From Alphaproteobacteria bacterium (lineage in GTDB: Bacteria; Pseudomonadota; Alphaproteobacteria; Rhizobiales; Rhizobiaceae): a stretch of 14,997 bases of DNA. A model generated the notes under the pieces. It saw only the letters and a list, made by a program, of their open reading frames with translations, searched no databases and had not been told where the DNA came from. Within the stretch, counting starts at the first letter, position 1; each line of letters opens with the position of its first letter. Both the position numbers and the translations under genes were made by a program. This document shows, piece after piece, positions 1-13,532 of this stretch. Where the stretch lies: NCBI GenBank assembly GCA_017308345.1, contig JAFKFE010001206.1:1-14997 (forward strand), given 5' to 3'.

Positions 1-172
1 CGGTGTCCTTGACCGTCTTCATCGGGTTGGCGACCAGGAAGGTGCCGAGCGCCGCGCCGCAGATGACCACCGCTTCCCAGGGCTGCAGCAAGACGTGCAG
101 ATGGCCGCCCATGGCCATGAAGCCGCCGAGAACGCAGCCGAGCGTCACCACAAGTCCGATCAGAATGCCCAC
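1..172 (-). CDS. motA: Flagellar motor stator protein MotA, N-terminal part (runs off the window)
   Basis: MotA is the inner-membrane stator subunit that, with MotB, conducts protons and drives flagellar rotation. Only the first 57 codons are present. The translation begins [20 protein letters not shown] and continues through MGGHLHVL and [20 protein letters not shown] to NPMKTVKDT. This is the first transmembrane helix and start of the second typical of MotA (the hydrophobic start, GGHL and ANPMK motifs). The start is GTG at 172: an in-frame stop lies a few codons upstream, and a purine-rich AAGGA sits just before the GTG. The gene is divergent from the DUF1217-flgF unit, sharing a control region of about 147 bp. 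Initiation at GTG is inferred. The family assignment is firm despite the short length. Confidence 0.93.
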
Positions 173-206
173 GACAGGTCCTTCCGCATGTCACGTCGTG
201 GATGAG

Positions 207-229
207 GGATAGTCCTCGTGCCTTGTGTG
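207..229 (-). promoter_or_regulatory. Candidate motA promoter element, CAAG-N9-CTA class
   Basis: On the minus strand the bases read CACACAAG, then nine bases, then CTATCC. The element ends 34 nt before the motA GTG. The same arrangement precedes three other units in this window (266-288, 4407-4429, 13475-13497). CTA resembles the start of the rhizobial -10 hexamer CTATAT. The CAAG half could be an activator site, because no CTTGAC-like -35 is seen at the expected distance. The role is inferred. Confidence 0.45.
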
Positions 230-265
230 AAGCTTGAAGCGAGGGCAACGAACGCGATTCAGCTT

Positions 266-288
266 CGCGCAAGGAAGTGACGCTATCG
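266..288 (+). promoter_or_regulatory. Candidate promoter element of the DUF1217-flgF-fliI unit, CAAG-N9-CTA class
   Basis: CGCGCAAG (266-273), nine bases, then CTATCG (283-288), ending 31 nt before the preferred TTG start. It lies back to back with the motA element in the same divergent region. A perfect inverted repeat, GCTATC (282-287) and GATAGC (295-300), overlaps the CTA half. It could be an operator or a small leader hairpin. Function is inferred from recurrence of the motif at four flagellar units. Confidence 0.45.
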
Positions 289-319
289 TGCAGGGATAGC
301 TTCGGCCGGAGGCGTGTCC

Positions 320-1441
320 TTGCTCAGTACCTACATCAGCTACCAGTTGATCGCCAAAGACATCAACAAATCGATCACCCAGGTCGAGCAACAGCCGACG
401 GTCGATCGCGATACGCAATATTACCTGGCCAATATCGGCAAGGTTACATCGATCGACGATTTCGTAAACAACGACCGCCTGTTCAAATACGCCATGAAGG
501 CTTACGGGCTGGAGAACATGGACTACGCCAAGGCCTTCATGGTCAAGGCGCTGAAGGAAGGCGTCTCCGACGCCGACAGCTTCGCCAACAAGCTGACTGA
601 CAAGCGCTACGCCCAGTTCGTCGCGGCCTTCAACTTCGCGTCCGATGGCGCCAATGCGACGGTCTACAATCCAACGCAGCAGCAGGTGACAGCGAACTAC
701 GCCACACAGGCCGAGATCGCCGGGCTCGATCCCGAATCGGATTATGTGAAAGGCGAGACGACCTACTATCTCGCCAACATCACCAAGGTGAAGTCGATCG
801 ACGACCTGATGTCGAACGACCGGCTCTACACTTACGCGCTGGCCGCGTTCGGCCTGGATTCAGCCACCGAGGACAAGGACCTGATCAAGTCCGTCCTGCA
901 AGGCGGCGTGAAGGATCCCGACAGCGTCGCGAACCAGCAAACCAACAAGGCCTATGCCGGGCTCGCCGCCGCTTTCAACTTCGCGCAGTACGGCGACACG
1001 ACGACCACTCGCGTCGCGGCGCAGCAGCCGACCGTGGACATGTATCTGCGCCAGACATTGGAAGAGAATGCCGGCAAGACCAACGAAGGCGTCCGGCTGG
1101 CGCTCTATTTCCAGCGCAAGGCGCCCGACATCACCAGCTGGTACGACGTGCTGGCCGACACCGCTTTAGCCAGCGTGGTGCGCACCGCGCTCGGCCTGCC
1201 CGATTCCTTCGCCACGGCAGACATCGACAAGCAGGCGCAGCTGTTCGAGCAGAAGCTCGACATCAAGGACTTCACCGACCCCGAAAAGCTCGGCAAGTTC
1301 CTGACCCGCTTCACCAACATGTACGAGATCGCCAACCCGACCTCGACGGCCGTGTCGTCGGTCAGCGTGCTCTTCGCGCAGCCGACCACCATCGGCATCT
1401 CCACCGATCTGATGATGGCCATGCAGCAATTGAAGTTCTGA
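320..1441 (+). CDS. DUF1217-type flagellar-cluster protein with internal repeats
   Basis: This looks like the DUF1217 protein found in rhizobial flagellar clusters; its biochemical role is not known to me. Start choice: GTG at 314 lies one base after GGAGG (308-312), too close to be served by it. TTG at 320 has ideal 7-nt spacing and gives a product starting MLSTYISYQ, so TTG is preferred (373 residues). The protein contains two clear tandem copies of one unit. Copy one is at about residues 34-108 (YYLANIGKVTSIDDF ... AAFNFA) and copy two at about 148-224 (YYLANITKVKSIDDL ... AAFNFA). A third, much more divergent unit lies at about 240-340, beginning with a repeated QQPTVD motif. No signal peptide or transmembrane segment is evident; the protein is mostly helical and soluble-looking. 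It is first in a unit with flgF, 7 nt upstream of it, which suggests a role in rod or hook assembly or its regulation. That role is inferred from position only. Confidence 0.85.
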   Translation: MLSTYISYQLIAKDINKSITQVEQQPTVDRDTQYYLANIGKVTSIDDFVNNDRLFKYAMKAYGLENMDYAKAFMVKALKEGVSDADSFANKLTDKRYAQFVAAFNFASDGANATVYNPTQQQVTANYATQAEIAGLDPESDYVKGETTYYLANITKVKSIDDLMSNDRLYTYALAAFGLDSATEDKDLIKSVLQGGVKDPDSVANQQTNKAYAGLAAAFNFAQYGDTTTTRVAAQQPTVDMYLRQTLEENAGKTNEGVRLALYFQRKAPDITSWYDVLADTALASVVRTALGLPDSFATADIDKQAQLFEQKLDIKDFTDPEKLGKFLTRFTNMYEIANPTSTAVSSVSVLFAQPTTIGISTDLMMAMQQLKF

Positions 1442-1448
1442 GACGATC

Positions 1449-2171
1449 ATGCAGGACAGCCTTTACGTCGCCCTTTCCTCTCAGATCGCGCTCGAGCGCC
1501 GTCTCGACACCATTGCCGACAACGTCGCCAATGCCTCGACCATCGGCTTTCGCGCCACCGGCGTGAAGTTCGAGGACGTCGTCTCCGGCACCGGGTCGAG
1601 GTCGGTCTCCTTCGCCTCCTCCGGCAACACCTATCTTTCCGGCGCGCATGGGGCTCTGACCGAAACCGGCAACCCGTTCGACTTCGCCGTCCAGGGCGAC
1701 GCCTGGTTCGCCATCGAGACGCCCGCCGGCACGGTGATGACGCGCGACGGCCGTTTCTCCATGAACGAGAACGGCGAACTGATGTCGATCGAAGGCTATC
1801 CTGTGCTGGACGGTGGCGGCGCCCCGATCCAGCTCGACCCGCGCAACGGCCCGCCCAAGGCGGGCGCCGACGGGTCGCTGAGGCAGAACGACCAGTTGGT
1901 CGGAGCTCTCGGCCTCTACAATTTCGACCCGGGCGAGAATTTCGTCCGCTACGGCAATTCAGGCATCGTTCCGGCGCGCACGCCCGAACCCGTCACCGAT
2001 CGTTCGGATGTCGGCATCGCGCAGGGATTTGTGGAAGAGTCGAACGTCAACCCGGTGCTGGAAATGACCCGGCTGATCCAGGTGCAGCGCGCTTTCGAGA
2101 ACACGGCGGCGCTGATGCGGCAGACCGATTCCTCCACCGACGACGCGATCAAGACGCTCGGCTCGAAGTGA
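1449..2171 (+). CDS. flgF: Flagellar basal-body proximal rod protein FlgF
   Basis: FlgF is one of the proximal rod proteins, exported to the periplasm by the flagellar type III system without a cleaved signal. The 240-residue product has the rod/hook-family N-terminal motif at about residues 22-36 (DTIADNVANASTIGF). The central flagellar-hook fold follows (GNPFDFAVQGDAWFAIETP and a TRDGRFSMNENGEL segment). The typical C-terminal coiled-coil tail is present (VEESNVNPVLEMTRLIQVQR ... TDSSTDDAIKTLGSK). It is shorter than FlgG (5597-6385) and more diverged, consistent with FlgF. It starts 7 nt after the DUF1217 stop and ends 4 nt before fliI. In many bacteria flgF sits directly beside flgG; here the two are in different operons, as in other rhizobia. 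Confidence 0.96.
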   Translation: MQDSLYVALSSQIALERRLDTIADNVANASTIGFRATGVKFEDVVSGTGSRSVSFASSGNTYLSGAHGALTETGNPFDFAVQGDAWFAIETPAGTVMTRDGRFSMNENGELMSIEGYPVLDGGGAPIQLDPRNGPPKAGADGSLRQNDQLVGALGLYNFDPGENFVRYGNSGIVPARTPEPVTDRSDVGIAQGFVEESNVNPVLEMTRLIQVQRAFENTAALMRQTDSSTDDAIKTLGSK

Positions 2172-2175
2172 CGGC

Positions 2176-3597
2176 ATGACGACCGGCTCGTCCCTGTTGC
2201 GCGCTTCCGAGGGCCCGGCGGATTCCGGAAGGACGGACAGGCTGGCCGCGCTCGAACGCGTCTGGCGCCGGTTCGACGATCCGCAGGCGCTGCTGTCGCG
2301 CGGCGGCCGCATCGTCGAGATATCGCCCACGCATTACAAGGTCCGTGGCGTCTCCGGAATTGCTAGGCTCGGCGACATCGTGGAGCAGCGCGGCAAGGCC
2401 GGCGCGCGACGCGGCGAGATCGTCAAGATCGGCAGCGACGAAGTCGTGATCGCGCCTTTCGAGCGTAGCGCCGATGCAGGTATCGGCGACGCCGTTTTCC
2501 GCCGCGGCCCCCTCGCGGTCACGCCGCATGTCTCATGGCGCGGGCGCGCCATCGATGCCTTGACCCGAGCCATCGACGGCGGCCCGCCGCTGATCAGGCC
2601 GAATGCCGCCGATGTCACCCACGGCGCGACGCCGGGCGCCTTGTCGCGCCAGCGTGTCGGCACCGGCTTCCTCACCGGAGTCCGGGTGATCGACATTTTC
2701 ACCCCGCTCTGCTTCGGCCAGCGGCTCGGCATCTTCGCCGGTTCCGGCGTCGGCAAGTCGACGCTGCTTGCCATGCTCGCCGGCGCCGAGGCCTTCGATA
2801 CGGTGGTCGTGGCGCTGATCGGCGAGCGCGGCCGTGAGGTGCGCGAGTTCCTCGAGGATACGATCGGCGCCGAGAGCATGGCCAAGACGATCGCCGTCGT
2901 CGCCACCAGCGACGAGAGCGCCATGATGCGCCGGCGCGCGCCAGACACCGCCATGTGCGTGGCCGAGCATTTCCGTGACCAGGGCCATCGCGTGCTCCTG
3001 GTGCTGGATTCCATCACCCGCTTCGCGCATGCGCTGCGCGAGGTTGCGACGGGAACCGGCGAGCCGCCGGTCGCGCGCGGCTATCCGGCCTCGGTCTTCA
3101 CCGACCTGCCGAAGCTGCTCGAACGCGCCGGTCCGGGAGCCGAGGGCCCTGGGGTTAAAGGTAGGGGTTCGATCACCGCCATCATTTCCGTGCTGGTCGA
3201 CGGCGACGACCACAACGATCCCGTGGCCGACTCGGTGCGCGGCATCCTCGACGGCCACGTCGTGCTCGACCGCGCGCTTGCCGAGCAGGGCCGCTATCCG
3301 CCGGTCAATCCGCTGTCGTCGATCTCGCGCCTTGCCGACAAGGCCTGGAGCGCCGAGCAGCGCATGCTGGTGACAAAGCTGAAATCGATGATCGCGCGCT
3401 TCGAGGATACGCGCGACATCCGCCTGCTGGGCGCTTACCAGAGCGGCGCCGATGCCGAGCTCGACAACGCGGTGCGCCAGGTGCCGCTGATTTACGAGGC
3501 GCTCACGCAATCGCCGAGGGACCGCGCGTCGGTTGATCCGTTCGCCGATCTCGCCCGCCATCTCAAGGGGAAGCTGAATGGCGATCAAGGAGACTGA
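2176..3597 (+). CDS. fliI: Flagellum-specific export ATPase FliI
   Basis: FliI is the cytoplasmic hexameric ATPase of the flagellar type III export apparatus. It unfolds and delivers rod, hook and filament subunits to the export gate. The 473-residue product has an N-terminal beta-barrel region (to about 120). The F1/Vo-type catalytic core carries Walker A AGSGVGKST at about 188-196, the catalytic-glutamate segment IGERGREVREF from about 215 (Glu217), and Walker B VLLVLDSITRF with Asp near 278. A downstream GRGSITAI segment and the C-terminal helical domain follow. Length is slightly above the usual 440-460. It begins 4 nt after flgF. Its last 20 nt overlap the start of the next gene at 3578, so the two are probably translationally coupled. 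Confidence 0.97.
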   Translation: MTTGSSLLRASEGPADSGRTDRLAALERVWRRFDDPQALLSRGGRIVEISPTHYKVRGVSGIARLGDIVEQRGKAGARRGEIVKIGSDEVVIAPFERSADAGIGDAVFRRGPLAVTPHVSWRGRAIDALTRAIDGGPPLIRPNAADVTHGATPGALSRQRVGTGFLTGVRVIDIFTPLCFGQRLGIFAGSGVGKSTLLAMLAGAEAFDTVVVALIGERGREVREFLEDTIGAESMAKTIAVVATSDESAMMRRRAPDTAMCVAEHFRDQGHRVLLVLDSITRFAHALREVATGTGEPPVARGYPASVFTDLPKLLERAGPGAEGPGVKGRGSITAIISVLVDGDDHNDPVADSVRGILDGHVVLDRALAEQGRYPPVNPLSSISRLADKAWSAEQRMLVTKLKSMIARFEDTRDIRLLGAYQSGADAELDNAVRQVPLIYEALTQSPRDRASVDPFADLARHLKGKLNGDQGD

Positions 3598-4369
3598 ACT
3601 CCAATATACCGAGCGCATGCTGCGCGACATGCTTGCCGAGGCGGAGGCGGCGGAGCGGGCTGAGGCCGACCAGGCAAGAATTGCCAGGGACAAAGCCGCG
3701 CGCGCCAGGACGGAGAAGACGGCGGCTGTTCTGATGAGAGCCGACAGGCCGCATTTGCCCAGGACTTCCGTCGGCGATACCGCCGCCGATGCGACGCAGG
3801 CCAACCGCGATTCGTTGCTGGATGGACTTTTTCCCCGCACCGAGTGGCCGGAGCCGCCAAAAGCCCAATTCCCGCGCCTGGCCGACAGGAGCGCCGACCG
3901 GCGCAGCGATTTCGTCATCGCCGCGCTCGGCATCACGCTCGGCCTGATCTGCGCATTGTTTCCCTGGTACATCTTCTTCAACCAGGAGCAGTTCGGCGTC
4001 CAGACCATCAAGTTCGGCGGCAGCGGCAGCAATTCGGGACGCGCGGGCGGCGGCGTTGTCACGCAAGGCAGCGGACCGCTGACGGCAAAGGACATTCCCA
4101 ATTCCGATATCGACCTGTTTGCCACCGGGACGGTGCAGGACGATCCCGCGCCGGCGCCCGGCGACCAGCCCTTCCCCGCCCCCGCTTCGGAATTCAAGAT
4201 GGTGCATGTCGCCAACGGCCGGGCCATGATCGAGGACGATACGGGCCTGTGGATCGTTCAGCGCGGCTCCATCCTGCCGGATTCCAGCCGTGTCGCCTCG
4301 ATCGAGCAGCGCGGCGGCAAGTGGGTGATCGTCACCAGCACCGACAAGGTGATCCAGCTCTCCAAGTAA
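3578..4369 (+). CDS. Unnamed single-pass membrane protein of the flagellar cluster (not FliJ)
   Basis: I do not recognise a named family for this 263-residue protein. Residues about 8-50 are very rich in Ala, Glu and Arg (TERMLRDMLAEAEAAERAEA) and look like a coiled-coil or long charged helix. A basic stretch (RLADRSADRRS) precedes one hydrophobic segment at about 111-134 (DFVIAALGITLGLICALFPW and on). A Gly/Ser-rich and then Pro-rich linker (about 145-205) leads to a compact C-terminal domain (about 207-263; VANGRAMIEDDTGLWIV ... KWVIVTSTDKVIQLSK). The positive-inside rule predicts N terminus in the cytoplasm and C-terminal domain in the periplasm. It overlaps fliI by 20 nt, with AAGGGG 7 nt before its ATG. 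It takes the place fliJ holds in many species, but the membrane segment argues against FliJ. It is the last gene of its unit. Confidence 0.85.
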   Translation: MAIKETELQYTERMLRDMLAEAEAAERAEADQARIARDKAARARTEKTAAVLMRADRPHLPRTSVGDTAADATQANRDSLLDGLFPRTEWPEPPKAQFPRLADRSADRRSDFVIAALGITLGLICALFPWYIFFNQEQFGVQTIKFGGSGSNSGRAGGGVVTQGSGPLTAKDIPNSDIDLFATGTVQDDPAPAPGDQPFPAPASEFKMVHVANGRAMIEDDTGLWIVQRGSILPDSSRVASIEQRGGKWVIVTSTDKVIQLSK

Positions 4370-4394
4370 CGGCGCCGGGCCTGACAGGCTCATC

Positions 4395-4414
4395 CCGCGC
4401 AAGGTCCGCGCAAG
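4395..4414 (+). repeat. Tandem direct repeat CCGCGCAAG, 11-bp period, upstream of flgB
   Basis: CCGCGCAAG occurs at 4395-4403 and again at 4406-4414. The period is 11 bp, about one helical turn, so both copies face the same side of the DNA. The downstream copy is the CAAG half of the candidate flgB promoter element. It is a plausible double binding site for a regulator; function is inferred. Confidence 0.5.
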
Positions 4415-4429
4415 ACTGGCCGCCTAGTC
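4407..4429 (+). promoter_or_regulatory. Candidate flgB-operon promoter element, CAAG-N9-CTA class
   Basis: CGCGCAAG (4407-4414), nine bases, then CTAGTC (4424-4429), ending 27 nt before the preferred flgB ATG. It sits in the 87-bp gap between the unnamed membrane protein and flgB. A perfect inverted repeat overlaps it: CAAGACT (4411-4417) and AGTCTTG (4426-4432), with 8 nt between. The eight bases CTAGTCTT are identical to those in the fliF element at 13492. This suggests the ten-gene operon has its own promoter. Confidence 0.5.
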
Positions 4430-4456
4430 TTGTCCGTACTTGCCCGGGAGATTCCC

Positions 4457-4837
4457 ATGGAACCCGTAAATCTTTTCGATCTCGCCACGCGACAGTCGCA
4501 ATGGCTGGCCGTGCGCCAGTCGGCGATTGCCTCCAACATCGCCAATGCCAACACGCCGGGCTACACGGCCAACGATGTCGAGCCGTTCGAAAAGGTCCTT
4601 GACCGGACCGCGGTGAAGCTGGTGGCCACGGAGGCGGGCCATCTTGGCGCCGAAACGGCCAATGCCGGCTTCAACGTCAAGCCGGAGGACCCCAACGGCG
4701 CGATCATGCCGTCGAAGAACACCGTCGTTCTCGAACAGGAGCTGATGAAGGCCGGCGAGGTCCGCCGCTCCTTCGAGCTCAACACGGCGATCGTCAAAGC
4801 CTTCCATTCGATGATGACGATGGTGGTGAAGAGCTGA
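4457..4837 (+). CDS. flgB: Flagellar basal-body rod protein FlgB
   Basis: FlgB is the rod subunit nearest the MS ring, assembled on FliE. The product is 126 residues from ATG at 4457. That start has GGGAG (4446-4450) at good spacing and gives [20 protein letters not shown]. An in-frame TTG at 4430 would add nine residues but overlaps the inverted repeat of the control region and has no clear ribosome site. The rod-family motif is at about residues 26-40 ([15 protein letters not shown]). The C-terminal helix ([20 protein letters not shown]) is typical of FlgB. It is the first gene of the flgB-fliP operon, and flgC begins 2 nt after its stop. Confidence 0.96.
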
Positions 4838-4839
4838 TC

Positions 4840-5256
4840 ATGGACGCCCTCACTGCAGCCCTCAAAGTCGCGGCATCAGGCCTGGGCGCCCAGTCGGAGC
4901 GCCTGCGCGTGGTTTCGGAAAACCTCGCCAACGCCCAGTCGACCGGCAGCACGCCCGGTGCCGATCCCTATCGTCGCAAGACGATCACCTTCCAGTCGGA
5001 GGTCGACCGCGCAACCGGCGGCTCGCTGGTGGAAGTCAGCTCGATCTCCCGCGATCCGTCGGACTTCCCGATCGAATTCCAGCCCGGCAACGAAGCCGCC
5101 GATGACAAAGGGTACGTCAAGATGCCCAACGTCAACACGTTGGTCGAAATGGCCGACATGAGTGAGGCGAACCGCTCCTATGAAGCCAACCTGCAGGTCA
5201 TCAAGCAGGCTCGCGATCTGATTTCCATGACCATCGACCTGATGAGGAACCAGTAA
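4840..5256 (+). CDS. flgC: Flagellar basal-body rod protein FlgC
   Basis: FlgC is a proximal rod subunit, exported by the flagellar type III system. The 138-residue product has the FlgC-type N terminus ([20 protein letters not shown], then [10 protein letters not shown]). The [13 protein letters not shown] segment, with the invariant PYRR, is characteristic of FlgC. The C-terminal helix follows ([20 protein letters not shown] ... [11 protein letters not shown]). Length is normal for the family. It lies between flgB (2 nt gap) and fliE, whose ATG immediately follows the flgC TAA. That spacing points to one transcript and coupled translation. Confidence 0.97.
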
Positions 5257-5586
5257 ATGATCGGCGGTATCGGGGCACTACAGTTCAAGACGGCGGTCGA
5301 TGGAGCGGATCAGGCTTCACCGGGTTTGCTTCAAGGCGGCGTCGGGACACAGGCCGGCGACAGCGTCGGCAGCACCTTCGCCGAGGTCCTCAGCCAGGCA
5401 GCGACGAAGACGGTCAACACGCTGCAGGGCGCCGAACAGATGTCGATACAGGCGCTCAAGGGCGACGCCGACACGCGTCAGGTCGTCGATGCGGTGCTGA
5501 GCGCCCAGCAGGCGCTGCAGACGACCATCGCGATCCGCGACAAGGTCGTCTCGGCCTATCTCGAAATCAGTCGCATGAGTATCTAG
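5257..5586 (+). CDS. fliE: Flagellar hook-basal body complex protein FliE
   Basis: FliE joins the MS ring (FliF) to the rod and is needed for export of later rod proteins. The 109-residue product has the family pattern: a Gly/Ala-rich variable N-terminal half, then [20 protein letters not shown] and a conserved C-terminal helix pair ([34 protein letters not shown]). Length is normal. Its start touches the flgC stop and flgG starts 10 nt after it, so it lies inside the operon. The next gene's ribosome site (AGGAA) overlaps its stop. Confidence 0.96.
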
Positions 5587-5596
5587 GAACCGCGTC

Positions 5597-6385
5597 ATGA
5601 AAGCACTCGCCATCGCCGCCACCGGCATGAACGCCCAGCAGACCAATCTGGAAGTCATTGCCAACAACATCGCCAACATCAACACCACCGGCTACAAGCG
5701 GGCCCGCGCCGAATTTTCCGACCTCCTCTACCAGGTCGACCGCACGCAGGGCGTGCCCAACCGCTCGAATACCTCGCTGGTGCCGGAAGGCGTGTCGATC
5801 GGCCTTGGCGTCAAGACGACGGCGGTTCGCAACGTTCATACCCAGGGCGAGCTGGCCAGCACCGGCAACAGCTTCGACCTGGCTTTGACCGGCAGGGGCT
5901 GGTTCCAGATCGAGGGCGCCGACGGTGGCACGCTCTACACCCGCGCCGGCGCCTTCAACACCAACGCCACCGGCCAGCTCGTGACGGTGGACGGCGCCAA
6001 CGTCATCCCGGCCATCACAGTGCCGACCGACGCGGTCGAGGTGATCGTCAACAAGACCGGCCAGGTCTTCGCCCGCCTCGACGGCCAGACCGATTTGCAG
6101 TTGCTCGGCCAGCTCCAGATCGTCAACTTCGCCAATGAGGCGGGGCTGGCGCCGCTTGGCGACAACCTCTTCCAGGAAACGGCTGCCTCTGGCCCGGCCA
6201 ATGTCGGCGTACCAGGCGATCCCGGCTTCGCCACGATCCAGCAGGGTTATCTGGAATCCTCCAACGTCGATCCGGTCAAGGAAATCACCGAGCTGATCTC
6301 GGCGCAGCGCGCCTATGAAATGAACTCCAAGGTCATCCAGGCAGCCGACGACATGGCCTCGGTTGTCTCCAAGAACATCAGGTAA
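5597..6385 (+). CDS. flgG: Flagellar basal-body distal rod protein FlgG
   Basis: FlgG forms the distal rod that passes through the P and L rings to the hook. The 262-residue length equals the family norm. The N terminus [20 protein letters not shown] is followed by the rod motif [20 protein letters not shown] (about residues 20-39). The Dc segment FSDLLYQ, the central hook-like domain ([18 protein letters not shown]) and the tail ([20 protein letters not shown]) complete it. The FSDLLYQ insert and overall length separate FlgG from FlgF. It begins 10 nt after fliE and is followed 3 nt later by flgA. Confidence 0.97.
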
Positions 6386-6388
6386 CGG

Positions 6389-6913: not shown

Positions 6914-8151
6914 TGCGCGCCTTCGTCCTTCTGCTCGCCGCGGCCATCGGTATTCAGCCGGCATTGGCGGATGGGTTGACGCCCAAGGCCAAGCGCGAGC
7001 TGGCGCAGAAAAATGGCGGCGTCTACGACGATCCGGAATACGATCCGGCCACGACCCAGCGCATGTTCCGCGTTTCCACCGGGCCAAGCACGCTGCCGCC
7101 CGGCCAGGTCGCCGCGCGCATCAAGGACATCGCCCAGCTGCAGAGCGCGCGCGACAACCAGCTCGTCGGCTACGGCCTGGTCATCGGCCTTGCCGGCACC
7201 GGCGACAGCCTGCGCAACTCGCCGTTCACCGAACAGTCGATCCGCGCCATGCTGGAGAATCTCGGCATTGCCACCGAGGGCGGCAGCGCGCGCGCCAAGA
7301 ATGTGGCCGCCGTCATCGTCACGGCCAACATGCCGCCCTTTGTCCAGTCGGGCGCCCGCATCGATATCGACGTCTCCTCGATGGGCGACGCCACCTCGCT
7401 TACCGGCGGCACGCTTGTGATGACCCCGCTGAAGGCCGCCGATGGCGAGATCTATGCCGTCGGCCAAGGCTCGGTGATCGTCGGCGGCTTCACCGCCCAG
7501 GGCCAGGCCGAGCAGTTGACGCAGGGCGTGCCCACAGCCGGCCGCGTGCCGAACGGCGCCATTGTCGAGCGCGCCGTGCCGGCCGAGTTCGATGACCAGG
7601 GGGTGCTGACGCTGCAGCTGCGCAATCCCGATTTCTCGACCGCCATCCGCATCGCCGACGCCATCAACGACTACACTTCGCAGCGTTTCGGCATGCGGGT
7701 CGCCGCCGAGCGGGATGCCCGCACGGTGCAGATCAGGCGGCCGAGGAACGTCTCCGCCGCGCGTTTCTATGCGGAGATCGAAAACCTCGTTGTCGAGTCC
7801 GACGCCCCTGCCCGCGTCGTCATCGACGAGCGCACCGGAACCATCGTCATCGGCAACAATGTCAGGATCTCGCGCGTGGCGATCAGCCACGGCACGCTTA
7901 CCGTGCGCATCACCGAGGCGCCGCGGGTCGTCCAGCCCGAACCCTTCTCCAAGGGCCAGACCGCGGTGGAACCATCCACGGCGATCGACGCGAGCCGGCC
8001 CAACGCGCGCGTCGCCGTGCTCGATGGCCCCGATCTCGAAACGCTCGTCTCCGGCCTCAATCGCCTCGGCGTGAAGCCCGACGGCATCATAGCCATCCTG
8101 CAAGGCATCAAATCGGCCGGCGCCCTGCAGGCCGACCTGGTTCTCCAATAG
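6913..8151 (+). CDS. flgI: Flagellar P-ring protein FlgI, with an N-terminal extension
   Basis: FlgI builds the periplasmic P ring, the bushing in the peptidoglycan layer. From ATG 6913, whose A is the last base of the flgA stop, the product is 412 residues; GTG at 6910 would add one. A signal peptide (about 1-19, ending PALA) is followed by about 49 residues rich in charge (DGLTPKAKRELAQKNGG and on). Only then comes the conserved family beginning, RIKDIAQLQSARDNQLVGYG and GLVIGLAGTGDSL. The rest is canonical (NVAAVIVTANMPPFVQSG ... VLDGPDLETLVSGLNRLGVK). Most FlgI proteins reach RIKD right after the signal peptide and total about 370 residues, so this lineage carries an insertion. An internal Met before the conserved region lacks a signal peptide, so the long form is preferred. 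Confidence 0.95.
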   Translation: MRAFVLLLAAAIGIQPALADGLTPKAKRELAQKNGGVYDDPEYDPATTQRMFRVSTGPSTLPPGQVAARIKDIAQLQSARDNQLVGYGLVIGLAGTGDSLRNSPFTEQSIRAMLENLGIATEGGSARAKNVAAVIVTANMPPFVQSGARIDIDVSSMGDATSLTGGTLVMTPLKAADGEIYAVGQGSVIVGGFTAQGQAEQLTQGVPTAGRVPNGAIVERAVPAEFDDQGVLTLQLRNPDFSTAIRIADAINDYTSQRFGMRVAAERDARTVQIRRPRNVSAARFYAEIENLVVESDAPARVVIDERTGTIVIGNNVRISRVAISHGTLTVRITEAPRVVQPEPFSKGQTAVEPSTAIDASRPNARVAVLDGPDLETLVSGLNRLGVKPDGIIAILQGIKSAGALQADLVLQ

Positions 8152-8159
8152 GAACGCCG

Positions 8160-8780
8160 ATGATCGCGCTTTTCTCCTCAAGACTGCATCGCGGCCCAGG
8201 ACTTCGCCTCGGGACCGGGCTCCTCGCCATTGGCGCGATCGTCGCGCTAACCAGCGGCGTCGTCCGCGCGGATGAAGTGCGCCAGGTGCTGCCCGGCGGT
8301 CAGGCGGCGGTTGAGCCGGCCCAGCTTACCCGGGAAACCGCGCCGGTTCAGGCGGCCGCGCTCACGGGCGGAAAGGCGCCTGACGAAAGCGAGATCCAGC
8401 GCTTCTGCTCCAACATCGCGGACGCCGCGCGCGACCGCCGCTACGCCTTGCAGGCCGAGGAGCTGAAACAGCTGCAGACCGGCATCGACGAGCGCATGAA
8501 GGCGCTCGACGCAAAGCGGGCCGAATACGAGGAATGGCTGAAGCGCCGCGAAGTGTTCCTGGCACGCGCCGAGGATGGCGTCGTCAAGATCTATGCCGAC
8601 ATGAAGCCGGACGCCGCCGCCGAGCGGTTGGCGATGGTCAATGCCGAGCTCGCGGCAGCCATCCTGATGAAACTCGATTCGCGCAAGGCCGGCGTCATCC
8701 TGAACGAAATGGACCAGAAGGCGGCGGCGACGCTCACCGGCATCATGGCCAGCGCGGCGCGAAGGGTTGATCCGTCATGA
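8160..8780 (+). CDS. motE: Motility protein MotE, periplasmic chaperone of MotC
   Basis: In Sinorhizobium meliloti, MotE is a periplasmic chaperone needed for folding and stability of the motor protein MotC, and works as a disulfide-linked dimer (literature knowledge). This 206-residue product has an N-terminal hydrophobic export segment (about 15-37, GLRLGTGLLAIGAIVALTSG). One cysteine follows (about residue 83, in EIQRFCSNIADAARDRR), which could form the inter-subunit disulfide. A coiled-coil-like charged stretch comes next (AEELKQLQTGIDERMKALDA). The C-terminal MgtE-N-like domain is MKPDAAAERLAMVNAELAAA ... LDSRKAGVILNEMDQKAAAT. The position between flgI and flgH is the rhizobial motE position. 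Its TGA overlaps the flgH ATG by four bases. Confidence 0.88.
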   Translation: MIALFSSRLHRGPGLRLGTGLLAIGAIVALTSGVVRADEVRQVLPGGQAAVEPAQLTRETAPVQAAALTGGKAPDESEIQRFCSNIADAARDRRYALQAEELKQLQTGIDERMKALDAKRAEYEEWLKRREVFLARAEDGVVKIYADMKPDAAAERLAMVNAELAAAILMKLDSRKAGVILNEMDQKAAATLTGIMASAARRVDPS

Positions 8781-9481
8781 AGTTGAAGTTGCTTGCCCTG
8801 ATCGCTATCGCCTCCCTCGCCGGATGCGGCACCGATCCCAAGGAGATCAACAGGGAGCCCGCCTTGTCTCCGGTCGGTTCCGGAATTGCCGCGGGCGGCT
8901 CCGGTCCTTACAGCTACCCCGAGCCGCCTGCTTCGCGGCCGAAGAAATTCTCGCTGTGGGATGATCGCCAGAGCCGGCTCTTCACCGACCCGCGCGCGCT
9001 GCGCGCCGGCGACATCCTGACCGTCAACATCAAGCTCAACGACAGGGCCAATTTCAAGAACCAGAACGACCGCAGCCGCACCGCCGCGCGCAAGCTCGGT
9101 TACGACATCAATCTCGGCTGGGAAGCGGCGAGCACAAGCGGCAAGGGCGACGCCGGCCTAAGCTCCAGCACCGAGACCAACGCCGACGGCGAGATCAAGC
9201 GCTCGGAAGATATCGCGCTCAATGTCGCCGCGGTCGTGACCGAGGTGCTTCCCAACGGCAATCTGATGATCAGGGGCTCGCAGGAAGTCCGCGTCAACTA
9301 CGAGCTTCGGGTCCTCACCATCGCCGGCATGGTGCGTCCGTCCGACATCGGCGCGGAGAACACCATCCCATACGAGCGCATCGCCGAGGCGCGTATCTCC
9401 TATGGCGGTCGAGGCCGCGTGAGCGAGGTCCAGCAGCCGGCCTATGGCCAGCAGGTCCTGGATCAGGTTCTTCCCTTCTAG
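8777..9481 (+). CDS. flgH: Flagellar L-ring lipoprotein FlgH
   Basis: FlgH forms the L ring in the outer membrane. The 234-residue product has a lipoprotein signal with lipobox LAGC (Cys17), marking acylation and outer-membrane sorting. The family segment SLWDDRQSRLFTDPRALRAG followed by DILTVNIKLNDRANFKNQND is present. The C-terminal conserved region is also seen (GNLMIRGSQEVRVNYELRVL, GMVRPSDIGAENTIPYERIA, then EARISYGGRGRV). Length is normal. The start overlaps the motE stop (ATGA), indicating coupled translation, and fliL follows 18 nt downstream. Confidence 0.96.
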   Translation: MKLKLLALIAIASLAGCGTDPKEINREPALSPVGSGIAAGGSGPYSYPEPPASRPKKFSLWDDRQSRLFTDPRALRAGDILTVNIKLNDRANFKNQNDRSRTAARKLGYDINLGWEAASTSGKGDAGLSSSTETNADGEIKRSEDIALNVAAVVTEVLPNGNLMIRGSQEVRVNYELRVLTIAGMVRPSDIGAENTIPYERIAEARISYGGRGRVSEVQQPAYGQQVLDQVLPF

Positions 9482-9499
9482 GGCCGGGAGAGCGCGACC

Positions 9500-9994
9500 G
9501 TGGCCAATGTCGAGCAGGTCCAGCCCAAGAAGGGACCTTCCCTGGTCATCCAGCTCGCCATGCTGCTGGTCATGACCGGTGCTGCCATCGGCATGGGCTG
9601 GGTTTCCGGTGGCTATCTCAAGCAGGGTGAGACGCCGGCGCCAGTGCCCTCGGCGCCGGAGAATGCCGGCACGGCGGAGAAGCCCGGCGAAGCCGGCAAG
9701 GCGACCGCCGGGCCAACGCTGATTCAACTGGCGCCGATCACCACCAATCTCGCCTCGCCGTCGGACGTGTGGATCCGGCTGGAGGCATCGCTGCTCTATG
9801 ACGCCCCGCAGCCGCCGGAAATGACCGAGCAGATCCACCAGGATCTGCTCGCCTACGTGCGTACGCTCAAGCTGCATCAGATCGAGGGTGCCAGCGGCTA
9901 CCAGCACCTCAAGGCCGATCTCGACGAGCGCGCCGCACTGCGCAGCGGCGGCCACGTCAAACAGGTTCTCGTCAGGACGATGCTGCTCGAATGA
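9500..9994 (+). CDS. fliL: Flagellar basal body-associated protein FliL
   Basis: FliL is a single-pass inner-membrane protein that surrounds or supports the MotAB stator and the basal body. The 164-residue product starts at GTG 9500 after a GGGAG ribosome site (9486-9490). A short basic cytoplasmic N terminus (VQPKKGP) is followed by one transmembrane helix (about 14-40) and a Pro/Ala/Glu-rich linker. The periplasmic domain has the family pattern (LAPITTNLASPSDVWIRLEA, LLAYVRTLKLHQIEGASGYQ, ending VLVRTMLLE). Its stop overlaps the fliP start by four bases (ATGA), so it is coupled to fliP. Confidence 0.94.
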   Translation: MANVEQVQPKKGPSLVIQLAMLLVMTGAAIGMGWVSGGYLKQGETPAPVPSAPENAGTAEKPGEAGKATAGPTLIQLAPITTNLASPSDVWIRLEASLLYDAPQPPEMTEQIHQDLLAYVRTLKLHQIEGASGYQHLKADLDERAALRSGGHVKQVLVRTMLLE

Positions 9995-10722
9995 GAAAGT
10001 TCCTCATAGCCACGGCGCTGATCGTCGTCACCACCTCCGTCGCCGCGGCCCAGCAGCTCGATCTCGGCGGCATCGGCAAGGCCGACGGCACGACCGTCGG
10101 CTATCTGATCCAGATGTTTGGCCTGCTCACCGTGCTTTCAGTGGCGCCGGGCCTTCTGATCATGGTGACGAGCTTCACCCGCTTCGTCATCGCCTTCTCG
10201 ATCCTGCGGGCCGGCATCGGCTTGCAGTCGACGCCGGCCAACCTGATCCTGATCTCGCTGTCGCTGTTCATGACCTTCTATGTCATGGCGCCGACCTTCG
10301 ACCAGGCGTGGAACACCGGCGTGAAGCCGCTGATGGACAACCAGATCACGCAGGCCGAGGCATTCGAGAAGATTTCCGGTCCTTTTCGCGACTTCATGCT
10401 GCACAACGTGCGCGACAAGGATTTCGACCTCTTCGCCGACCTCGCCCGCGAGCGCGGCCAGACCGTCTCGCGCGAGACCGTCGACCTGCGCATCCTGGTG
10501 CCGGCCTTCATGATCTCGGAAATCCGGCGCGGCTTCGAGATCGGCTTTCTCATCGTCCTGCCGTTCCTCGTCATCGACCTCATCGTCGCCACCGTCACCA
10601 TGGCCATGGGCATGATGATGCTGCCGCCGACGGTGGTGTCGCTGCCGTTCAAGATCCTGTTCTTCGTGCTTATCGACGGCTGGAACCTTTTGGTCGGCAG
10701 CCTGGTTCGATCCTTCACCTGA
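9991..10722 (+). CDS. fliP: Flagellar type III export gate protein FliP
   Basis: FliP is the main subunit of the FliP5-FliQ4-FliR1 export gate in the inner membrane. The 243-residue product has a cleavable signal peptide (about 1-20, ending VAAA before QQ), as FliP proteins often do. The family core is present: VAPGLLIMVTSFTRFVIAFS, then ILRAGIGLQSTPANLILI and LSLFMTFYVMAPTF. The C-terminal helices follow (LVPAFMISEIRRGFEIGFLI, MAMGMMMLPPTVVSLPFKIL, FFVLIDGWNLLVGSL). It is the last gene of the flgB operon. No convincing intrinsic terminator follows, so some read-through into the flagellin region is possible. Confidence 0.97.
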   Translation: MRKFLIATALIVVTTSVAAAQQLDLGGIGKADGTTVGYLIQMFGLLTVLSVAPGLLIMVTSFTRFVIAFSILRAGIGLQSTPANLILISLSLFMTFYVMAPTFDQAWNTGVKPLMDNQITQAEAFEKISGPFRDFMLHNVRDKDFDLFADLARERGQTVSRETVDLRILVPAFMISEIRRGFEIGFLIVLPFLVIDLIVATVTMAMGMMMLPPTVVSLPFKILFFVLIDGWNLLVGSLVRSFT

Positions 10723-10778
10723 CACCGCAAAAAACCGGCGCCGGATATTCGCTCGAATTTTAGGCAATATATTTTCGA

Positions 10779-10798
10779 TTAACCCTGCGATTTAGGTC
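10779..10798 (+). promoter_or_regulatory. Candidate control element of flagellin 1: TTAACC-N7-TTAGGTC
   Basis: TTAACC (10779-10784) and TTAGGTC (10792-10798) lie about 140-160 nt before the flagellin 1 ATG. The same pair, with 6 instead of 7 bases between, precedes flagellin 2 (12172-12190). The CAAG-N9-CTA element of the other units is absent. TTAACC is also a CtrA half-site sequence. The rest of the 214-nt gap holds an AT-rich stretch before this element, a CTAG at 10810 and a leader hairpin at 10880-10900. Function is inferred. Confidence 0.35.
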
Positions 10799-10879
10799 TT
10801 TGGTAGGGACTAGCCCGCATATTGCTCGCAGATGGCGGGTGATCGGGTTCCACAGATCATTGGCATGATGCCGCACCGT

Positions 10880-10900
10880 CATACCGGACATGCCGGTATG
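10880..10900 (+). repeat. Perfect 8-bp inverted repeat in the flagellin 1 leader
   Basis: CATACCGG (10880-10887) and CCGGTATG (10893-10900) are perfect complements with a 5-nt loop, ending 36 nt before the flagellin 1 ATG. The run after it is A rather than T on this strand, so it is not an intrinsic terminator. It would form a stable hairpin in the flagellin 5' leader, or could be an operator. Confidence 0.6.
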
Positions 10901-10936
10901 TAAAAAAAATCCGTGTAAAAATAGGGTACGTGTACC

Positions 10937-11932
10937 ATGTCCAGTATCATGACGAACGCCTCGGCGTTGACCGCGCTGCAGAGCTGGAACGCCACCCAGA
11001 AGAACCTCGACACCACCCAGGCCCGCATCTCGACGGGCTATCGCGTTTCCCAGGCTTCGGACAACGCCGCTTACTGGTCGATCGCCACCACCATGCGTTC
11101 CGACAACCAGGCCATGTCCACCGTTTCGGACGCGCTCGGCCTCGGCGCCTCGAAGGTCGACACCGCCTACACCGGCATGGACAGCGCGATCACGACCATC
11201 AACCAGATCCAGCAGAAGCTGACCGCGTCCTACGGCCAGACGGATGCTTCGAAGGAAAAGACTCAGGTCGAAATCAAGGCCCTTCAGGACCAGTTGAAGG
11301 CCTACGCCGACGGCGCCACCTTCTCCGGCACGAACATGCTGTCGGTCAACAGCGGCGCCACCGCCACGACCGCGGCCGACGTCAAGATCGTTTCGGCCTT
11401 CAACCGCAGCGCCACTGGCGCGGTTTCGATCTCGACGATCGACGTCAACGTGGAAAGCATCAAGCTGTATGAAGCCGGCACCGCCGTGGGCGTGTCGAAG
11501 GGTATCCTCGACGCCAACCGCCTCGGCACCGATGGCAGCGTCGTAGCTGCGGCCTCGGCGCCGACGCTGGGCGCTGCTGCTGCGGCCACCGACACCTACA
11601 CGGTCGCCGGCCTGGCGATCTTCTCCGGCACCACCGCTGCGAGCGACAGCCAGATCCAGCAGATGATGAACGTCGTCGACGCCGCGCTCAAGGACATGAC
11701 GAACGCCGCCACCAAGCTCGGCGCCGCCAAGAGCTCGATCGACCTGCAGAAGACCTTCACCTCGAGCCTGATGGACTCCATCGACCGCGGCGTCGGCCAG
11801 CTCGTCGATGCCGACATGAACAAGGAATCGACCCGCCTCCAGGCTCTGCAGGTTCAGCAGCAGCTCGGCGTCCAGGCGCTGTCGATCGCCAACAGCTCCT
11901 CGCAGTCGATCCTGTCGCTCTTCCGCGGCTGA
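10937..11932 (+). CDS. fla: Flagellin 1 (filament subunit)
   Basis: This is the main filament protein, exported by the flagellar type III system and polymerised at the filament tip. The 331-residue product has conserved D0/D1 ends: N-terminal SSIMTNASALTALQSWNATQ, QARISTGYRVSQASDNAAYW and SIATTMRSDN. C-terminal are SSLMDSIDRGVGQLVDADMN, QALQVQQQLGVQALSIANSS and SQSILSLF. The central part (about residues 170-250) is Ala/Thr/Ser rich and low in conservation, with no large D2/D3 insertion, as in rhizobial flagellins. The ATG start has only a weak AGGG (10923-10926) upstream. The position just after fliP matches flaA of S. meliloti, but the paralogue name is uncertain. The last 207 nt of its conserved 3' part are almost identical to flagellin 2. 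Confidence 0.97.
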   Translation: MSSIMTNASALTALQSWNATQKNLDTTQARISTGYRVSQASDNAAYWSIATTMRSDNQAMSTVSDALGLGASKVDTAYTGMDSAITTINQIQQKLTASYGQTDASKEKTQVEIKALQDQLKAYADGATFSGTNMLSVNSGATATTAADVKIVSAFNRSATGAVSISTIDVNVESIKLYEAGTAVGVSKGILDANRLGTDGSVVAAASAPTLGAAAAATDTYTVAGLAIFSGTTAASDSQIQQMMNVVDAALKDMTNAATKLGAAKSSIDLQKTFTSSLMDSIDRGVGQLVDADMNKESTRLQALQVQQQLGVQALSIANSSSQSILSLFRG

Positions 11933-11958
11933 TCGCCCAAAAGACGGCTACATCGGAC

Positions 11959-11989
11959 AATCGGGCCGCGCCGAAAGCGCGGCCCGATT
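11959..11989 (+). terminator. Hairpin terminator after flagellin 1
   Basis: A perfect 13-bp stem (arms 11959-11971 and 11977-11989, core ATCGGGCCGCGC) with loop CGAAA lies 26 nt after the flagellin 1 stop. It is followed by a short T-containing tract (TTGCGTT counting the last stem base), weaker than a classical U-run. The very stable stem just after the gene supports termination or 3' mRNA protection. A second small perfect hairpin (TCACCGT-CTC-ACGGTGA, 12004-12020) follows. Confidence 0.75.
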
Positions 11990-12029
11990 TGCGTTGGGGC
12001 GGCTCACCGTCTCACGGTGACGGCAAACA

Positions 12030-12050
12030 GCTTCATTTCATTTTTGAAGC
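12030..12050 (+). repeat. Inverted repeat GCTTCA / TGAAGC in the gap between flagellins
   Basis: GCTTCA (12030-12035) and TGAAGC (12045-12050) flank nine T-rich bases in the 350-nt gap between the two flagellin genes. It is too weak and too far from either gene to call a terminator. It may be an upstream binding site or chance. Confidence 0.3.
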
Positions 12051-12136
12051 AATTGCGCGCGGCAAAACCTTTGCTTGGAATTATTCTCGCTCAAGGTTCG
12101 CGCAATCCTCGTTTCTTAACTTCTCAAAGCCGAGTT

Positions 12137-12175
12137 TTAACAGGCCATTAACCATATCGGGCTAGGTATGGTTAA
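12137..12175 (+). promoter_or_regulatory. CtrA-type box fused to an inverted repeat upstream of flagellin 2
   Basis: TTAA (12137-12140), seven bases, TTAAC (12148-12152) matches the full CtrA consensus TTAA-N7-TTAAC. The second half is also the left arm of a perfect inverted repeat: TTAACCATA (12148-12156), ten bases, TATGGTTAA (12167-12175). TTAACCAT is the 8-base CtrA half-site reported in Caulobacter and rhizobia. A further TTAAC lies at 12116. The shared flagellin element TTAACC-N6-TTAGGTC runs on at 12172-12190, and a GANTC site (GAATC, 12194) follows. CtrA as the binding protein is inferred from the consensus only. Confidence 0.6.
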
Positions 12176-12228
12176 CCAATGACTTAGGTCGTCGAATCGG
12201 CCCGACCGGCACGATCGCGACCCGTGGG

Positions 12229-12247
12229 CAGGCCGAGACCCGGCCTG
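12229..12247 (+). repeat. Hairpin in the flagellin 2 leader
   Basis: CAGGCC (12229-12234) and GGCCTG (12242-12247) form a perfect stem with a 7-nt loop. It ends 21 nt before the AAGGAG ribosome site (12269-12274). With the flagellin 1 hairpin (10880-10900), both flagellin leaders carry a hairpin ahead of the ribosome site. Confidence 0.5.
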
Positions 12248-12282
12248 TGTGGCATGCCGGCTTTTGAGAAGGAGCGAGTTTC

Positions 12283-13353
12283 TTGGCGAGCATCATGACG
12301 AACGCTGCGGCGTTGACTGCACTTCAAAGCCTCAACGCCACCAACAAATCGCTCCAGCAGACCCAGGCCCGTATCTCGACCGGCTACAGGGTCTCCGAAG
12401 CCTCCGACAACGCCGCCTACTGGTCGATCGCCACCACGATGCGCTCCGACAATTCGGCGCTCTCGACCGTGCAGGACGCGCTCGGCCTCGGCGCTTCGAA
12501 GGTCGACACCGCCTATACCGGTATGAACAACGTCCTTTCGACGATCGGCCAGATCAAGACCAAGCTTTTGTCGGCCGTCGGCCAGTCGGATGCAAACAAG
12601 GCAAAGACGCAGACCGAAATCACCGCGCTGCAGGCGCAGATGAAATCCTTCGCCGATGCCGCGACCTTCTCCGGCTCGAATTACCTTTCGGTAACGTCCA
12701 AGCAGGTTGCGGCTCCCAATGACGGCGTCCAGCCCGATGCCCAGATCGTCTCATCGTTCAACCGCTCGTCGTCCGGCGCCATCTCGCTCGGAACGATCGA
12801 CATCGATGTCGAAAGCACCAAGCTGTTCGATTCCGGTCTTGCCACCGACGTCAAGAACCAGGGCATCCTCGATCGCCAGACCTCGATATATTCCACCGCC
12901 GCGGACCAGTCCGCGTATGACACGGCCTATGCAGCCGCGATCGCCGGCGGCGCCACCGACATCGCCGCCAACACCGCCGGCCAGGCCGCCGTGTCGGGCA
13001 CGCCCGTCAAGATCGACAACGTCTCCGCCTTCAATCTCGACATCACGGCATCCGGCGTGACCGACGACATCATCACGCAGATGATCACCAAGATCGACAA
13101 CGTCATGAGTCAGCTCACCGACTCCGCCACCATCCTCGGCGCCGCCAAGAGCTCGATCGACCTGCAGAAGACCTTCACGCAGAGCCTGATGGACTCCATC
13201 GACCGCGGCGTCGGCCAGCTCGTCGATGCCGACATGAACAAGGAATCGACCCGCCTCCAGGCCCTGCAGGTTCAGCAGCAGCTTGGCATCCAGTCGCTGT
13301 CGATCGCCAACAGCTCCTCGCAGTCGATCCTGTCGCTCTTCAAGAACGGCTAA
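12283..13353 (+). CDS. fla: Flagellin 2 (filament subunit), TTG start
   Basis: A second filament subunit of 356 residues, closely related to flagellin 1 at both ends: ASIMTNAAALTALQSLNATN, ARISTGYRVSEASDNAAYWS at the N terminus; QSLMDSIDRGVGQLVDADMN and QVQQQLGIQSLSIANSSSQS at the C terminus. Its middle is longer by about 25 residues and differs (DRQTSIYSTAADQSAYDTAY, AAAIAGGATDIAANTAGQAA). TTG at 12283 is preferred: AAGGAG (12269-12274) is 8 nt before it, and it makes the N terminus line up with flagellin 1 (MASIMTN against MSSIMTN). The alternative ATG at 12295 is too far from that site. It has its own upstream region and a terminator, so it is probably a separate transcription unit. The position matches flaB of S. 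meliloti, but the paralogue name is uncertain. Confidence 0.96.
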   Translation: MASIMTNAAALTALQSLNATNKSLQQTQARISTGYRVSEASDNAAYWSIATTMRSDNSALSTVQDALGLGASKVDTAYTGMNNVLSTIGQIKTKLLSAVGQSDANKAKTQTEITALQAQMKSFADAATFSGSNYLSVTSKQVAAPNDGVQPDAQIVSSFNRSSSGAISLGTIDIDVESTKLFDSGLATDVKNQGILDRQTSIYSTAADQSAYDTAYAAAIAGGATDIAANTAGQAAVSGTPVKIDNVSAFNLDITASGVTDDIITQMITKIDNVMSQLTDSATILGAAKSSIDLQKTFTQSLMDSIDRGVGQLVDADMNKESTRLQALQVQQQLGIQSLSIANSSSQSILSLFKNG

Positions 13354-13382
13354 AGCCGTCCTGTCGTCCCGACCGGCAGAAT

Positions 13383-13408
13383 GGCCGCGCCCCAAGCGCG
13401 GCCTTTTT
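13383..13408 (+). terminator. Intrinsic terminator after flagellin 2
   Basis: GGCCGCGC (13383-13390) and GCGCGGCC (13396-13403) form a perfect 8-bp stem with loop CCCAA, followed at once by TTTTT (13404-13408). It lies 29 nt after the flagellin 2 stop. The stem arms are identical in sequence to the core of the flagellin 1 hairpin. It separates flagellin 2 from fliF. Confidence 0.85.
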
Positions 13409-13474
13409 CGTTGGTGGAAAGAAGCCGCCAGTCCCGCATTTCGCAGGTTCTTCGGCGGCGCGCCCTATCATCCT

Positions 13475-13497
13475 CGCACAAGCTTCGCGGTCTAGTC
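13475..13497 (+). promoter_or_regulatory. Candidate fliF promoter element, CAAG-N9-CTA class
   Basis: CGCACAAG (13475-13482), nine bases, then CTAGTC (13492-13497), ending 35 nt before the fliF GTG. It lies after the flagellin 2 terminator, which fits fliF starting a new transcription unit. CTAGTCTT here is identical to the flgB element. The role is inferred from recurrence. Confidence 0.5.
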
Positions 13498-13532
13498 TTC
13501 TGGCGGACAGTCATGCTGGGAGCGGTTGAATC

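Follow-up and report, generated by a model that had tools for sequence, protein, structure and literature searches.

Why should four flagellar units on one contig be preceded by the same short bipartite element, CRCRCAAG-N9-CTAK? The contig (JAFKFE010001206.1, 14,997 nucleotides, analysed whole and here called the window) comes from a member of the Rhizobiaceae whose genome is available as a draft of 1307 contigs (5.41 Mb, completeness about 80%); the host genus is probably Mesorhizobium, since records under that name match its fliF with up to 91% identity. The units are those of motA, of a DUF1217 protein gene followed by flgF and fliI, of the flgB operon and of fliF. The explanation that we favour, with a probability of about 0.83, is that the element represents the operator and core of a class II flagellar promoter activated by Rem. 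Passages of three papers describe Rem as an OmpR-like, aspartate-less regulator that is controlled by VisNR and activates class II flagellar genes (PMC9812332, PMC6180460, PMC4018554). We propose that a Rem dimer (of OmpR/PhoB type, encoded just before flgE) would bind two tandem half-sites and recruit sigma-70 RNA polymerase, and that it would co-activate the four units, flgE, flhA and an unlinked gene for a protein of 58 residues, with the flagellins being driven differently, via a CtrA-type site.

The element in the window and in the host genome

The pattern CRCRCAAG-N9-CTAK has four exact matches in the window, ahead of the four units named in the earlier note, against 0.01 expected from 200 dinucleotide shuffles, none of which contained four (Table 1). 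The end of the element lies 34 nucleotides (nt) before the GTG start of motA, 27 nt before flgB and 35 nt before fliF, within the range of 27–35 nt claimed earlier; the DUF1217 gene conforms to that range only if its start is the TTG at 320 (31 nt), since the GTG at 314 leaves 25 nt. CTAG is indeed a rare word, with 110 occurrences in 300 kb of flagellar regions from five genomes compared to 989 predicted from base composition, which is about ninefold fewer. Gene names in the window were taken from Pfam and NCBIfam models; the motA fragment gave no Pfam match and owes its name to a full-length orthologue in a relative (G077) that scores above the MotA cut-off.

Table 1. Boxes, target genes and other sites; positions refer to the window unless a contig of the host genome is named.
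Feature	Position	Strand	Details
Rem-type box and -10 of motA (putative)	206..236	-	pattern match 209-229; half-sites CAAG 236-233 and CAAG 225-222, 11 base pairs apart; CACACAAG 229-222; -10-like TATCCC 211-206, T at +23 absent
Rem-type box and -10 of DUF1217-flgF-fliI unit (putative)	259..289	+	pattern match 266-286; TCAG 259-262, CAAG 270-273; -10-like TATCGT 284-289
Rem-type box and -10 of flgB operon (putative)	4396..4430	+	pattern match 4407-4427; exact CGCGCAAG at 4396 and 4407; half-sites CAAG 4400-4403 and 4411-4414; -10-like TAGTCT 4425-4430
Rem-type box and -10 of fliF (putative)	13468..13498	+	pattern match 13475-13495; TCAT 13468-13471, CAAG 13479-13482, CTTCG; -10-like TAGTCT 13493-13498
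motA	3..172	-	target unit; GTG start at 172; 3' end beyond window
DUF1217 protein gene	314..1441	+	PF06748 (Pfam/NCBIfam); first gene of unit
flgF	1449..2171	+	same unit as DUF1217 gene
fliI	2176..3597	+	same unit as DUF1217 gene
flgB	4457..4837	+	Pfam/NCBIfam; first gene of basal-body operon
Degenerate box	12094..12118	+	CAAG-N7-CAAT; 164 nt before second flagellin; one mismatch to refined pattern
CtrA-type site	12137..12151	+	TTAA-N7-TTAA; just downstream of degenerate box, before second flagellin
fliF	13533..14996	+	Pfam/NCBIfam; 3' end beyond window
rem candidate	C512:5452-6117		flgE box directly behind
flgE box	C512		between rem and flgE
flhA box	C440		48 nt before flhA; gene cut by locus end; best NCBIfam match FlhA
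58-residue protein gene and box	C1178:2444-2699 (L005/L267)		box 60 nt upstream; unlinked to flagellar units

The earlier note had proposed a scan of the genome and its relatives for CRCRCAAG-N9-CTA. In this short form the pattern is unspecific, with five places in the host genome (four of them in the window) versus 14 for the reversed pattern; among 119 genomes of the genus it occurs at up to 15 places per genome and the reversed pattern is usually commoner. It was dropped as a genome-wide predictor. One recurrent copy (CGCACAAGGCTCAATCCCTA) is crossed on its flank by a long open frame and so seems to be intragenic. The refined pattern ANNYYCRCRCAAG-N10-TA, in which the core is extended by bases shared among orthologues (A at -5 and pyrimidines at -2 and -1) and TA replaces CTA, is specific: it occurs at seven places in the 5.4-Mb draft and its reversed form at none. 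These units were already known when the pattern was refined, so what is informative is the absence of other matches and of control matches. The seven places are the four in the window together with flgE, flhA and the 58-residue protein gene, so that six of them lie at flagellar units (basal body, hook, export and motor). The flgE product has hook protein FlgE as its best NCBIfam match, below the cut-off of that model and above that of the FlgEFG subfamily.

With T at +23 added, the refined pattern was found at one to eight places in each of 23 further genomes (reversed control, 0 or 1). Among 20 stretches around such places in relatives, seven precede motA, DUF1217, flgE or flhA-like genes, one of these names being confirmed by Pfam and the others assigned by eye against named orthologues. 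Nine lie outside the cluster without a clear flagellar gene (two in G466, one each in G474 and G021, two in G034 and three in G254); at these places only the open frames that follow were inspected, and we take them as unexplained or as chance matches. At one of the places in G466 (C1:2276877, L356), the gene 45 nt downstream of a complete refined box encodes a protein of 145 residues.

The remaining four (L362, L364, L370 and L371) precede an unnamed gene inside the flagellar cluster that has its own box; in G077 a gene similar by eye directly follows fliF, and the box may appear where this unit has moved. A FliH-like identity, suggested by eye, was dropped for this gene: two of the four were scanned and had no Pfam match.

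The exact 26-base fliF box, TTCGCRCAAGYTTCG-N4-CTAGTGT, was sought across the genomes of 84,980 species of bacteria and archaea, a set that possibly omits the host genome. It returned 47 stretches: 46 precede fliF, with the start 31 to 159 nt downstream, and one, in Hoeflea, precedes a flhA gene (FlhA above cut-off). The hosts are Mesorhizobium, Rhizobium, Pararhizobium, Xaviernesmea and Hoeflea, plus records labelled Rhizobiales, Phyllobacteriaceae or 'Bacterium'.

Half-sites and the putative -10 region

The box appears to consist of two half-sites on one strand (consensus CAAG, with CAG or CAT frequent at the upstream site) about 11 base pairs (bp) apart, followed by a -10-like TANNNT that starts 10 bp after the downstream CAAG, so that it would fill the place of the missing -35. 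This is the geometry of PhoB/OmpR-type operators, in which tandem half-sites 11 bp apart replace the -35 at about 10 bp before the -10. In the seven boxes of the host genome the upstream word is CAAG (motA, flgB and the 58-residue protein gene), CAG (DUF1217 and flgE), CAT (fliF) or CAC (flhA), and at flgB the entire 8-mer is repeated at 11 bp. For a larger sample, 74 boxes of genes other than fliF were collected (flgB 22, flgE 32, and five each for the 58-residue protein gene, motA, DUF1217 and flhA; the flgB boxes are those of 30 loci that passed a start-codon filter). A CAAG-like word, i.e. one with three or four of the four bases, stands exactly 11 bp upstream of the core CAAG in 52 of these 74, compared to none at 8, 9, 10 or 12 bp, one at 13 bp and two at 14 bp. 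At fliF, CA lies 10 bp upstream of the core, and the column counts indicate that TTCG recurs at 11 bp.

The second part of the element is best described from 88 fliF boxes of the family, in which A occurs at -5 in 83, TT at +9/+10 in all 88, T at +18 in 77, A at +19 in all 88 and T at +23 in 85. These counts at +19 and +23 identify it as TANNNT, of which CTA is the start. According to the earlier note, CTA fits the start of the rhizobial -10; the hexamer itself is TANNNT, which would correspond to a sigma-70-type -10. The TA counts of the 74 other boxes are no evidence on this point, since TA was required when they were collected. The earlier statement that a normal -35 is missing agrees with the seven boxes of the host genome, none of which has a TTGAC-like word in the -35 slot.

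That two blocks are conserved at a constant distance from each other, upstream of one functional class of genes, might also reflect recognition of a -35 and a -10 by an alternative sigma factor, a reading that we consider very unlikely. Sigma factors recognize -35 and -10 hexamers separated by 16–18 bp, and the 10 bp between CAAG and TA is too close for such a pair; moreover, the core recurs at 11 bp as the upstream half-site. Promoters of sigma-54 are of the -24/-12 type (GG-N10-GC), a pattern that is absent from the window. It occurs in two of 90 family regions upstream of fliF and a sigma-28-like pattern in one, and both candidates were set aside.

Conservation of the box and its probable link to Rem

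Lack of conservation at orthologous promoters had been named in the earlier note as an outcome that would speak against an activator-dependent promoter. Conservation was followed in 121 genomes of the family from 109 genera, 100 of which have FliF; the region upstream of fliF was obtained for 90 of these (84 genera), and 88 of the 90 contain CRCRCAAG exactly within 260 nt. Where several cores were found upstream of one fliF, the copy followed by YTTCG or YTTGG was preferred. FlgB was matched in 99 of the 121 genomes, and 27 of the 30 loci returned have an exact CRCRCAAG-N10-TA within 250 nt, the other three having one mismatch. The flgE side, behind rem, was read at 28 loci among the 102 genomes with Rem and has the box exactly in 25 and with one mismatch in three. 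The distance from box to gene varies from 17 to more than 170 nt, whereas that from box to TA is constant among exact matches; in roughly a dozen fliF boxes an additional base or a different -10 has to be assumed. The flgE-side box has one mismatch in G435 and G442. These two genomes and G471 have Rem without a FliF match, possibly owing to assembly gaps or to decaying flagella.

The same 90 fliF regions bear on the suggestion that the units are driven through a CtrA site or the site of FtcR, and that the box is something else. FtcR is the flagellar master regulator of Brucella, for which a chromatin immunoprecipitation sequencing (ChIP-seq) motif, TGTGGGCA, and binding upstream of fliF are reported in passages of PMC9456535; part of PMC6180460 states that CtrA activates the flagellins of S. 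meliloti. Since TGTGGGCA occurs in none of the 90 regions and TTAA-N7-TTAA in five, as against 88 for the box core, both sites were set aside and we regard this suggestion as extremely unlikely.

The host genome contains one clear rem candidate. It is 98% identical to a gene of G034 that is probably rem, judged by its position before flgE and its sequence; the next paralogue in the host genome is only 31% identical to it. The product has Response_reg and Trans_reg_C domains (Pfam) and reaches no NCBIfam cut-off. Among the 120 best relatives listed, two (86–87%) are named flagellar system response regulator FtcR by JGI and the others have generic names; relatives of known structure include RegX3, PhoP, KdpE and PhoB.

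Rem and FliF are distributed together. In the 121 family genomes Rem is present in 102, FliF in 100 and both in 99; the only genome with FliF and without Rem (G440) encodes a distant FliF type (34% identity). At the level of the order, a search at E 1e-40 detected Rem in 83 of 297 genomes; its absences are provisional, as scoring was limited to ten first-look candidates in most of the genomes. Eighty order genomes were chosen for closer study. Among the 48 with Rem, 42 have a FliF that is 41–51% identical to that of the host genome, five have no FliF match and one (G232) has only a distant FliF; among the 32 without Rem, 22 have FliF, always of the distant type (29–35%), and ten have none. FliF of the order is thus divided into a Rem-associated and a distant type, and twelve genomes with Rem carry both.

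A weight matrix trained on the 88 family fliF boxes only was applied to the other families, a match being a score that beats more than 95 of 100 shuffles. It matched upstream of 33 of the 42 Rem-type fliF genes outside the family and of none of the 16 distant-type fliF genes of Rem-less genomes that were fetched (of 22). In the twelve genomes with two systems, the Rem-type fliF was matched in 11 (G311 misses) and the distant-type fliF in none. The bare exact core was found in 22 of the 42 Rem-type and none of the twelve second-type regions. Anchoring without the -10 columns gave 34 matches among the 42 Rem-type fliF genes, with A19 in 32 of the 34 and T23 in 26; for G153 the best place is a neighbouring one, probably in the wrong register. 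Of the 34 re-anchored boxes, 21 start with CAA, which places this triplet exactly 11 bp upstream of the CAA in the core. T18 is kept in only three of the 34, from which it follows that the strict TA form is a trait of the family. Because the sequences are related, none of these order-level counts represents independent events.

This relatedness, which inflates counts, and the common ancestry that promoters of one cluster could have, would be in favour of explaining the box by chance or by duplicated promoters without function. We give this practically no weight, considering the 0.01 matches expected in the window, the preservation of the core at fliF across 84 genera and at flgB and flgE with their own flanks, and the contrast between Rem-type and second-type fliF within the same genomes (11 versus 0 of 12). 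Taken together, the element appears to be a family-wide and partly order-wide promoter class, wider than the earlier note had stated, for which a Rem operator is the best explanation.

Several observations weigh against that explanation. Two family fliF regions (G514 and G417) have no core, and both genomes have Rem. The spacing of 11 bp is not the rule at fliF, where a CAAG-like word stands at 10 bp in 15 of the 88 family boxes and at 11 bp in four, and T23 is absent at motA in the window and in five relatives. Outside the family the strict TA form occurs in none of the 42 Rem-type fliF regions, eight or nine of the 42 have no box at all, and the bare 8-base core is present, by chance or otherwise, in one of the 16 fliF regions of Rem-less genomes. 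Upstream of rem itself no copy within two mismatches was found at short distance in four relatives. The Brucella motif TGTGGGCA, which none of the 90 family fliF regions contains, has one copy in the window, at 7536 (-), inside flgI and at no promoter. Finally, the link between Rem and the box rests on co-inheritance, which does not of itself distinguish between Rem and other regulators that belong to the same flagellar lineage.

Another such activator, with Rem merely co-occurring through co-inheritance, might be VisN/VisR (LuxR type), and this is the rival to which we assign some, if rather little, likelihood. The half-sites are in tandem with an 11-bp period in most boxes other than those of fliF, as expected of OmpR-type regulators. 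Passages of PMC9812332, PMC6180460 and PMC4018554 place VisNR over Rem as the class IA master regulator of S. meliloti and Agrobacterium, and it is reported in the last of these to act mainly through rem. The earlier interpretation of the element as an activator-dependent promoter of a Rem-like, OmpR-type regulator is retained as a prediction from sequence, which the half-sites, targets, conservation and co-distribution with Rem support.

Flagellins, a small protein and known systems

According to the earlier note the two flagellin genes of the window lack the element. This is true of intact copies, none of which lies within 330 nt of the 11 flagellin starts that a word search located in the window and five relatives; a degenerate copy does precede the second flagellin, with the last G of the core replaced. 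Similar copies, with two mismatches to the short pattern, are present in four relatives; the degenerate copy could be a remnant of a box or one that acts weakly. The CtrA-type consensus is TTAA-N7-TTAA, and its sole copy in the window also lies before the second flagellin; none was found at the four units with a box. In the window and four relatives the start region of the second flagellin follows it after 154–173 nt, and it is absent before all six first flagellins (window and five relatives).

The 58-residue protein (MERFVEDYQKRRLTERVDI...) has no Pfam or NCBIfam match. Its neighbours are, by eye, ABC-transporter-like genes, and no flagellar gene was seen at the locus. The protein is widespread in Mesorhizobium (211 matches; among the 120 listed the names are 'hypothetical' or 'uncharacterized'), and a wider profile finds 788 proteins, with members in 30 of the 121 family genomes. 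At 26 loci, an exact relaxed motif is present in six, 49–64 nt upstream in G012, G000, G444, G456 and G464 and 124 nt upstream in G484; four have one mismatch 52–60 nt upstream (G472, G493, G487 and G478), and 16 have no box within one mismatch. We tentatively suggest, as a possibility with the odds against it, that some seven promoters with this box form a single ancient regulon, specified by an almost identical code over much of an order, and that this protein, its sole non-flagellar member in the host genome, could be a feedback partner of Rem, either MirA or a MirA-like anti-activator. MirA binds and inhibits Rem in A. tumefaciens, according to passages of PMC12632262 and PMC9731437. If the suggestion is true, Rem would switch on its own brake via the 58-residue protein.

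Regulators of the Rem/FtcR/LafR group turn on flagella in bacteria that live as plant symbionts and in related ones. With a box of such specificity, the Rem regulon could be read off in many genomes of the order; the box tells which of two flagellar systems the regulator serves and gives an exact target for mutagenesis. It conflicts with one published ChIP motif, and through it a small protein without annotation emerges as a possible new component. In the literature searched, which did not extend to the primary Rem paper, no published Rem operator or box was found except the FtcR ChIP motif. A term search of the main text of a transcription start site paper on S. meliloti (PMC3616915) gave no flagellar, chemotaxis or Rem passage, and the covered passages of one on agrobacteria (PMC10469942) contain nothing on the box. 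We cannot claim on this basis that the box has never been published before.

Four known systems invite comparison. The pho box of the PhoB/OmpR class shares tandem half-sites at 11 bp, a replaced -35 and about 10 bp to the -10, and differs in its half-site, which is here CAAG-like with a CRCR linker; the regulator also differs, as Rem is reported in part of PMC9812332 to have an aspartate-less receiver and to be active without phosphorylation. CtrA-dependent promoters are likewise alphaproteobacterial flagellar promoters with paired half-sites, although theirs are AT-rich and the window has a copy only before the second flagellin. The Brucella FtcR motif TGTGGGCA is, in the available passages of PMC9456535, the claimed site of a Rem-like regulator bound upstream of fliF; it is a different sequence, and absent from the family fliF regions. 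The fourth is the class II regulon of Rem, FtcR and LafR in S. meliloti, A. fabrum and the lateral flagella of Bradyrhizobium, and of ActR in Azorhizobium. LafR controls the Bradyrhizobium lateral flagella (passages of PMC5996035), dual flagellar systems have been described (in part of PMC6406911), and the FtcR-like ActR is needed for motility of Azorhizobium, FtcR-like genes usually being near flagellar genes (excerpts of PMC8639532). The class of target genes is the same, an orthologue-like regulator is encoded beside flgE here as well, and the flagellins form a separate tier; what is added here, from sequence alone, is the box with its spacing, its set of seven places and its taxonomic range.

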